Shown piece by piece: positions 21,662 through 26,623 of a DNA stretch of 34,092 nt (positions are counted from its first letter, which is position 1; each line of letters opens with the position of its first letter). This DNA comes from a virus. Made by a program: the position numbers and the translations under genes. Under the pieces are notes generated by a model that ran no database searches, was not told the origin of the DNA, and was given only the letters and a program-made list of their open reading frames with translations. The stretch is from IMG/VR virus record IMGVR_UViG_3300031857_000714, positions 1 to 34,092 of that record. The stretch is one strand, 5' to 3'.

Positions 21662-21689
21662 ATTATAGTCAATTACACATTGATGTCAA
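21662..21689 (-). promoter_or_regulatory. Consensus sigma70 promoter
   Basis: TTGACA, 16 bp, TATAAT on the minus strand, overlapping the 3' end of the holin-like gene and serving the Cys-rich small gene at 21650 and the Sm-like gene after it. Confidence 0.82.
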
Positions 21690-22002
21690 TATTTATCTTT
21701 CCTTTTTTTGCTTTTATCTTGTTTGAAACAAAATCATATATCAATTCCAATGATTTTAATCCTATAAATCCCATGACAAATGCAGTTCCATATTTACCAT
21801 TGTTTTGTATATATTCTGGCATAAAATTCAAAACTATTGGTGTAAGGTAATTTGCACATATTGCGCCAGCAAATATAGATGTTATTGCTTTTCCCGGTGT
21901 TTGATTCTTTGTAGTGAGGGCAAGCAACAATGCTCCAAAAAATCCAGCTAAAATTAATCCTAAATCTAGTCCATAATCCGATTGTTGAGAATTTTGTTCC
22001 AT
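21673..22002 (-). CDS. Holin-like small membrane protein
   Basis: The ATG at 22002 (MEQNSQQSDYGLDLGLILAG) is preceded by AAGGA with 6 nt spacing. The ATG two codons earlier directly abuts that site and is less likely. The 109 residues contain three hydrophobic segments: 'LGLILAGFFGALLLALT' (about 13-30), 'AITSIFAGAICANYLTPIVL' (about 40-60) and 'YGTAFVMGFIGLKSLELIYD' (about 72-92). A basic tail 'KIKAKKGK' follows. Size, three segments and charged ends are typical of class I holins. A TATAAATA late promoter upstream fits late expression. Holin is an inference; no endolysin gene was seen in the window. Confidence 0.68.
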   Translation of the reverse strand: MEQNSQQSDYGLDLGLILAGFFGALLLALTTKNQTPGKAITSIFAGAICANYLTPIVLNFMPEYIQNNGKYGTAFVMGFIGLKSLELIYDFVSNKIKAKKGKINIDINV

Positions 22003-22048
22003 TATCATTCCTTATATTTAAACATAGTATATAAGGTACTTACTTACT

Positions 22049-22056
22049 TATTTATA
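22049..22056 (-). promoter_or_regulatory. T4-type late promoter for the holin-like gene
   Basis: TATAAATA on the minus strand, just after the tmRNA terminator and 46 nt upstream of the holin-like start codon. It is the only promoter-like element in this short gap. Confidence 0.7.
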
Positions 22057-22059
22057 AAA

Positions 22060-22087
22060 TAAAAAAACAACCGCCAGTGGCGGTTGT
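22060..22087 (-). terminator. Rho-independent terminator after tmRNA
   Basis: On the minus strand ACAACCGCC-act-GGCGGTTGT is followed by seven U residues and an AU-rich tail, a textbook intrinsic terminator. It closes the tRNA/tmRNA transcript. Confidence 0.93.
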
Positions 22088-22310
22088 AGTCAATTCAGTC
22101 GCGGGATGACCAGTCCCCACTGCTTTAGGCAGCACGACGCATTGGAGCGGCGTTTATAAGTGCCAACTTTGGCATTTAACGAGGGTTGTTGACTACCTCT
22201 CGGATATCTCCCTATTACTTACATCCCCCCGTCGATTCTGTTCGACCCCGTAGGTTTGAATGGAGTCGGGGGGATTCGCACCCCCGTGCAGTTGGGTAGT
22301 TTGTAAAGAT
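22088..22310 (-). ncRNA. ssrA: Circularly permuted (two-piece) tmRNA
   Basis: On the minus strand the acceptor half comes first: T-arm GGGGG-TGCGAAT-CCCCC (22285-22269), acceptor strand CGACTCC and discriminator A at 22261. After an 11-nt spacer (22260-22250) comes the 5' half GGGGTCG (22249-22243), which pairs with CGACTCC including the G-U third pair shared by tmRNA and tRNA-Ala. Then comes AACAGAATCGACGG, the tmRNA D-region (compare E. coli GATTCGACGG). CTTTACA/ACCC upstream of the T-arm can pair with GGG.AT.GTAAG as helix P2. A tag frame GCA CTT ATA AAC ... GCT GCC TAA (22163-22125) gives ALINAAPMRRAA. tmRNA rescues stalled ribosomes. Permuted forms occur in alphaproteobacteria, some cyanobacteria and some betaproteobacteria. 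The exact resume codon is uncertain. Confidence 0.85.
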
Positions 22311-22328
22311 CAACGATATCATTTTTAT

Positions 22329-22592
22329 TTATGGTCTGTCAACTAGATAAATGGATTCTTGATCTACAATATCAAGACCGTTATGAGATCCTTTCATTTT
22401 TGTGATATCCCACAAAACAAGATCTCCGATCTTAATATCTTCAGTTAGATGTGGTCCAATATCAACGACCTTTGACCAAACCATTTTATTTGTTACCTTG
22501 TCATCGTAAATAATTCCTGCTTCGGTAGTCTTTCTGCCACCGAATGTTCGTTTAAGCAGAACTGTCTTTCCCACTGGTTTAATATTTTTCAT
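22329..22592 (-). CDS. GroES-like co-chaperonin
   Basis: This 87-residue protein follows the Cpn10 plan: 'NIKPVGKTVLLKRTFGGRKT' then 'TEAGIIYDD', 'WSKVVDIGPHLTEDIKIGDL' and 'VLWD', ending 'DIVDQESIYLVD'. A Gly-rich mobile-loop-like segment (residues about 17-27) replaces the usual long loop. It is slightly shorter than GroES (97) and T4 gp31 (111). Such proteins cap the host GroEL, in T4 for folding the major capsid protein. Its ATG overlaps the previous stop (ATGA), and its 3' end lies about 20 nt before the tmRNA. No divergent domain was seen. Confidence 0.82.
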   Translation of the reverse strand: MKNIKPVGKTVLLKRTFGGRKTTEAGIIYDDKVTNKMVWSKVVDIGPHLTEDIKIGDLVLWDITKMKGSHNGLDIVDQESIYLVDRP

Positions 22593-26103: not shown

Positions 26104-26131
26104 ATTATACCAGAACTGGAGCGTTTGTCAA
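26104..26131 (-). promoter_or_regulatory. Consensus sigma70 promoter for the tRNA-Lys/Gly unit
   Basis: TTGACA, 16 bp, TATAAT on the minus strand, located in the final codons of the gene ending at 26105. Nothing but a short possible ORF separates it from tRNA-Lys and tRNA-Gly. Confidence 0.85.
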
Positions 26132-26623
26132 GCCTTCGGTGTACCAATCTGGAATTTCTGTAAATTTCCATTTTGCGAACCGAGACTTTGCGCCAATATA
26201 ATATTTTCGATATGCCGTTACTGCATCCCCAGGAACTTTAAATTCCTCTGGCATTGCTTGTGCAAATGGTGTTAATTCTCCATCGGGTGTTCTCAATGGA
26301 TAATACTTTGTGAACCACACGGTCATATCGTGTGCCTTGTGAAATTTATTGTAGCGACGAGTATACTCAAGAGACAACTCATGTGTATGCTCTGCCAACC
26401 ACATATAGTTTTCTTTATTTTCTCTTGCCCAAATTGTACAAGGATGATTTTGAAATGATTGCTTGTAAAATACTACAGGAGAAGTATAAACTACATGACT
26501 ACCAGACATGCGATGATTTGTGGAGAGCATTTGACAACCCTCCACGATCATTTTTACCACATGCTTGTCACACATCATATGTGCGGCGATTCGTGGATTT
26601 TCATGCAATACAAAAATATTCAT
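26105..26623 (-). CDS. Conserved phage protein of unknown function ('CDKHVVKM' family)
   Basis: This 172-residue protein starts MNIFVLHENPRIAAHMMCDK, then HVVKMIVEGCQMLSTNHRM, with 'NHPCTIWARENKENYMWLAE', 'LSLEYTRRYNKFHKAHD' and 'LTPFAQAMPEEFKVPGDAVT' followed by 'AYRKYYIGAK'. I recognise this layout from many phage genomes (start 'MNIF.L...P..AA...CDKHVVKM..E..Q.L'). The conserved His, Cys, Trp and Lys suggest an enzyme, but I know of no demonstrated activity. The start overlaps the stop of the upstream 55-residue gene (ATGA). Confidence 0.8.
   Translation of the reverse strand: MNIFVLHENPRIAAHMMCDKHVVKMIVEGCQMLSTNHRMSGSHVVYTSPVVFYKQSFQNHPCTIWARENKENYMWLAEHTHELSLEYTRRYNKFHKAHDMTVWFTKYYPLRTPDGELTPFAQAMPEEFKVPGDAVTAYRKYYIGAKSRFAKWKFTEIPDWYTEGLTNAPVLV

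Follow-up and report, generated by a model that had tools for sequence, protein, structure and literature searches.

A probable two-piece tmRNA with an eight-residue tag in an uncultured T4-like phage, and its permuted relatives in viral contigs

The DNA analysed here (the window), a virus record of 34,092 bases from an uncultured T4-like phage, carries on its minus strand a permuted tmRNA gene that runs from about 22320 to about 22088, as placed by ARAGORN, Rfam and covariation. We put the probability that this gene provides a functional, phage-encoded two-piece tmRNA at about 85%. ARAGORN called the minus strand as a permuted tmRNA (tmRNA*) with the tag AAPMRRAA, and the Rfam model RF04321 (tmRNA_permuted) matched positions 22320-22125, minus strand, with 64.2 bits against a cut-off of 47 (E = 2.4e-10 for the window), so that the circularly permuted two-piece phage tmRNA proposed in the original prediction, together with the covariance-model search that it called for, was borne out. 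Model score and structure both place the gene in the permuted tmRNA class. The second-best model, beta_tmRNA (RF01850), matched over its full length including the region of the downstream pseudoknot, but its score of 34.8 bits lies below the cut-off of 84, and the gene is not a member of that family as curated. The novelty implied at the outset was too strong: phage tmRNAs of one and of two pieces are known (PMC9004378, PMC11915505, PMC4131195), permuted ones among them, and 53 candidates among 18,146 phage genomes were reported with phage Melnitz (PMC9004378).

All parts of the gene lie on the minus strand and are given here in the direction of transcription. The acceptor half (22261..22320; RF04321 match and covariation) contains the 5' strand of P2, the T-arm, the acceptor strand CGACTCC and the discriminator A, and CCA is not encoded. 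By sequence the T-arm reads GGGGG-TGCGAAT-CCCCC and stands before CGACTCC and the discriminator; its loop TGCGAAT (22274..22280; sequence and structure scan) has G at position 55 (22279) in place of U. An 11-nt spacer, TTCAAACCTAC (22250..22260; sequence and structure scan), follows, its counterparts in other loci measuring 5-205 nt, and the coding half then starts with the 5' acceptor strand GGGGTCG (22243..22249; sequence and covariation), which forms with CGACTCC an acceptor of 7 bp whose third pair is G3-U70. The 3' half thus precedes the 5' half, and this order, the spacer length and the acceptor with its G-U third pair all agree with the first description of the locus. Downstream lie a D-loop-like segment AACAGAATCGAC (22231..22242; structure scan) with A at position 18 (22239), the P2 strand GATATC (22203..22208; covariation), which pairs with 22315-22320, pseudoknot 1 (22162..22202; CGAGaGG/CCCUCG and GUCAAC/GUUGGC; covariation), the tag frame (22125..22151) and a downstream pseudoknot (22088..22120; GUGGG/CCCGC and GGUCA/UGACU; covariation). 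Of the extent first proposed, 22088-22310, the lower end was kept at about 22088, while the RNA was found to reach about 22320 at the other end and to be followed by a terminator (22087-22067).

An alignment of 20 distinct short-spacer phage tmRNA genes was used to count a hand-written structure of 51 pairs. Across pairs and genes 95.1% of cells paired, compared with 40-53% when one strand was slid, a percentage that is flattered since the structure was derived from the same 20 sequences. The count of pairs that change on both sides (15 of the 51), which none of 500 shuffles matched, is less affected by this. In the acceptor, the compensatory changes looked for in GGGGTCG/CGACTCC were found in relatives at three pairs, each 100% paired (56-82: GC/AU/GU; 57-81: AU/UA/GC/UG; 58-80: CG/UA). 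The outer part of P2 paired in 99.2% of cells with a compensatory change from UA to CG, and its inner parts in 82-89%; pseudoknot 1 was 95-100% paired with four double-change pairs, and the downstream pseudoknot 98-100% with three. G3-U70 was present in each of the 92 tmRNA loci that a structure-only scan identified among all the loci fetched. Over the tag codons, helix 8 of the hand-written structure paired in only 68% of cells and showed no covariation, and it is not claimed. A hairpin in the tag codons, examined as a possible reason for the odd RR in the tag, formed in every tag tested, but when the window's tag was recoded at random with synonymous codons the hairpin formed about equally well (fraction 0.33).

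The tag frame called by ARAGORN encodes AAPMRRAA followed by a stop, starting at the resume codon GCC (22151). Every locus with a complete frame (65 of 65, window included) has exactly eight codons and a stop and ends in AA-stop: AAPMRMAA in 23, AAPMAMAA in 10, AAPMRRAA in nine including the window, ANQLAMAA in nine, ANELAMAA in seven, AANMRMAA in three and four single tags. The tag of 12 residues first proposed was therefore wrong; relatives do not keep its upstream ALIN codons in frame, as with a 1-base deletion in locus L176. The -RRAA end emphasised at the same time is real in the window, but it is a minority state (9/65) in a clade ending mostly in -MAA. Among relatives the tag codons vary synonymously and the stops swap between TAA and TGA, which supports translation of the tag. 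Upstream of the resume codon, the window and most of its relatives have U(-5)A(-4), like the determinant of E. coli. Tags recognised in the ClpX manner do not usually have Arg three residues before the end, and the window's tag may therefore be no strong degradation signal. A literature search with five of these tags matched no paper.

The tRNA elbow also deviates from the usual form, as A18-G55 replaces G18-U55 while G19-C56 is retained. In the structure-only scan, which left positions 18, 54 and 55 unrestricted and restricted position 58 in part, the 92 loci had G/U at 18/55 in 58 cases and A/G in 34 (32 and 21 distinct, respectively), and U/A at 54/58 in 83 cases and G/G in nine, with zero mixed combinations at either pair. 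On a tree of the coding half, sites 18 and 55 changed eight times each, and their changes went together in four of four independent pairs on supported branches, too few for significance (sign test, p = 0.125). The published gene of phage Melnitz likewise has A18/G55 (GGCAGTA with CTAGGTTCGAC), so the swap is not special to the window's phage group. Because Melnitz and 34 of the 92 sampled loci have it, A18-G55 does not exclude membership, the G18-U55/G19-C56 contacts being usual and not defining. In the literature searched, most subscription journals lying outside it, no paper naming the swap was found. The paired elbow switch offers a natural experiment on how the L-shape of a tmRNA is maintained when the near-universal U55 is missing.

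Within the permuted class the gene differs in tag, spacer, CCA and elbow. With RF04321 it shares the order of the halves, the G3-U70 acceptor, the T-arm, the P2 pairing, the UCGAC motif and a tag frame, and it differs in the missing CCA, the very short spacer, the eight-residue RRAA tag and A18-G55. Methylophilales phage Melnitz (MZ577097, PMC9004378) is also a T4-like phage with a permuted tmRNA of the A18-G55 type; unlike the window, Melnitz has an encoded CCA, a long spacer, a 14-residue tag ending in ALAA and a glutamine riboswitch, and no recognisable nucleotide similarity was found between the two.

Upstream of the acceptor half, and ending 5 nt before it, is a T4-late-promoter-like box, CATAAATA (22326..22333, minus), which overlaps the GroES stop codon and differs by one base from the T4 late promoter consensus, TATAAATA. 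Of 32 distinct relatives, 23 have TAAATA within 30 nt upstream, compared with 1.3% of random 30-mers drawn from these loci, and seven have a perfect TATAAATA (random background: 0.19%). The motif keeps a near-constant distance, usually 5-6 nt, from the base at which pairing of the acceptor half begins, and this enrichment and spacing suggest that late transcription starts at the acceptor half or beside it. At the other end lies a putative intrinsic terminator, ACAACCGCC-ACT-GGCGGTTGT with a T-run (22067..22087, minus). The upstream neighbour on the same strand is an 87-aa GroES/Cpn10-like protein (22329..22592, minus; PF00166, 31 bits, cut-off 21.1; phrog_3188, co-chaperonin GroES), and the downstream neighbour is a 111-aa holin-like protein (21673..22008, minus; phrog_2359, holin, E = 5.5e-13), which sits behind a perfect TATAAATA at 22049-22056, minus. 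A common transcript with tRNAs and the GroES-like gene, as originally proposed, is thus only partly supported: the Cpn10/GroES gene is indeed just upstream on the same strand, but the tmRNA has a late-promoter-like box and a terminator of its own. In the whole window TATAAATA occurs 10 times (4.1 expected; none of 100 shuffles reached 10), the copy near the holin-like gene being one of these, and T4-type late promoters are likely, judging from these motifs, to be in use in this phage. Protein-family searches also identified a pyrimidine dimer DNA glycosylase at 26105-26623, minus (PF03013, 39.6 bits), resembling T4 DenV.

Pattern scans of viral contigs found the pseudoknot 1 motif in 24 loci and the downstream pseudoknot motif in 65 contigs. 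Among 84,980 species genomes of bacteria and archaea the latter motif had a single match, put down to chance, in a MAG without any permuted tmRNA, and the branch therefore looks phage-specific within the genomes sampled; the exact spacer pattern, used there in a search for a bacterial donor, had no match. Among isolated phages, blastn with the window's tmRNA gave no close relatives, and with a relative's tmRNA as query only short matches to the tRNA-like domain. As far as genomes were sampled, a whole branch of permuted tmRNAs with its own short tag is kept by phages and not by bacteria, by which it becomes testable whether phages use trans-translation for themselves.

A different use of the RNA would be as a mimic or decoy, which would bind SmpB or AlaRS through its tRNA-like part and so block trans-translation in the host, with the tag mattering little. 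A phage-borne tmRNA-derived RNA of this host-tmRNA-inhibiting type, consisting of the tRNA-like domain only, is published for mycobacteriophage DS6A (PMC11915505, PMC4131195), and two of our contigs (L198 and L201, 92.8 and 81.5 kb) retain an acceptor half, followed by the cloverleaf RNA described below and then a terminator, with no coding half found elsewhere in the contig. The RNA of these two is possibly a tag-less tmRNA like that of DS6A, and this branch shows that the gene can decay. A decoy, however, needs no tag frame, stop codon or pseudoknots, all of which are conserved across about 65 loci, and the window gene has the full tag frame that DS6A lacks; we consider this explanation unlikely. 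It is still less probable that a host tmRNA gene was captured recently and that this gene is its non-functional remnant. Phages do often integrate at ssrA and carry fragments of it (PMC9004378), but the gene is complete, shows compensatory changes, belongs to a phage-only clade and has a terminator and a promoter-like box, and there is no integrase among the protein families identified in the window. Least probable of all is a bacterial or chimeric contig with the tmRNA of a host, which a metagenomic 34-kb fragment might suggest, as T4-like baseplate, tail-tube, gp32-like SSB and holin genes were found on it by protein-family searches, and independent viral contigs also carry the tmRNA, flanked by the same box and terminator.

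For a functional two-piece tmRNA, which we prefer, we infer the timing of transcription, the processing, the charging and the tagging as follows. A precursor would start, probably from a T4-type late promoter, at or beside the 5' end of the acceptor half and end at the tmRNA's own terminator. RNase P and 3'-end processing would cut out the 11-nt spacer, a host nucleotidyltransferase would supply the missing CCA, and the acceptor and P2 helices would keep the two pieces together. Host AlaRS would charge the RNA via G3-U70 and host SmpB would deliver it to stalled ribosomes, where translation would resume at GCC and add Ala-AAPMRRAA. No SmpB gene was found in 30 phage records, most of them fragments, which makes this absence weak evidence, while the same search found SmpB in 10 of 14 control genomes; because none was found in these records, the protein must presumably be supplied by the host. 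The most likely benefit would be that ribosomes and tagging are kept going late in infection, during cleavage of host RNA and mRNA.

Many of the longer spacers share one conserved element, and in 19 relatives the spacer between the permuted halves contains it, a covarying, tRNA-like cloverleaf typically of about 115 nt (L178:3977-4106; L179, L182, L183, L187, L191, L193, L196, L197, L199, L200, L202, L231, L232, L239, L242, L244, L253, L254), and it is absent from the window. Its parts are an acceptor-like and a D-like arm, an anticodon-like arm with a GACAA loop, a long variable-like arm with a GUAAAA/ACAAA internal loop, and a T-arm. When 18 distinct copies were aligned, 96.6% of cells paired compared with 29-45% when slid, and 18 of 33 pairs changed on both sides; the copies also folded better than shuffles (z = -2.6 to -3.5). 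Of 49 phage records searched with a covariance model, 16 contained the element, each in a single copy. In three further loci it lies not within the gene but ahead of a tRNA-Pro and the tmRNA (L233:5712-5838; L268; L270), and the L233 copy has TTCAAAT as a canonical T-loop and a D-loop-like GUGGGAA. In L269 (IMGVR_UViG_3300042945_002100, 35542-35671, minus) it directly precedes a tmRNA with the tag ANRRLALAA; a split gene was rejected for this locus, whose tmRNA is in one piece behind the cloverleaf. The insert had no match to Rfam up to E = 10, and none in isolated phages or in plasmids. Identity with YrlA was rejected, since a score of 20.7 bits (cut-off 69) over a neighbouring stretch vanished when the element was searched alone, and so was a group I intron, for which the insert is too short and Rfam gave no match. 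The cloverleaf is probably an undescribed tRNA-shaped RNA belonging to phage tmRNA genes. It might signal processing by RNase P/Z, or mimic a tRNA and be expressed together with the rescue RNA. As a candidate for a new RNA family it comes with a clear context in which to test it.

Other insertions were seen in single loci or small groups. The spacer of one relative holds, after the cloverleaf, a complete tRNA-Pro gene (L202:651-856, minus). In two others a 183-aa ORF interrupts the acceptor half (L180:2693-3244, minus; L191:7758-8309, plus), with a weak HNH match in L180 only (E = 0.0085), and beyond the ORF the gene is restored by another acceptor half and D-arm, which differ from the first (T-loop GGCAGTA/GGCAGTT), an arrangement like that of a homing element bringing a replacement half. 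Six loci with spacers of 97-99 nt (L233, L234, L248, L249, L255 and L258) contain a second, unrelated insert of structured appearance (GCCTAACCGAA ... TTCTGCAA ... GAGATGGCGAGT ...).
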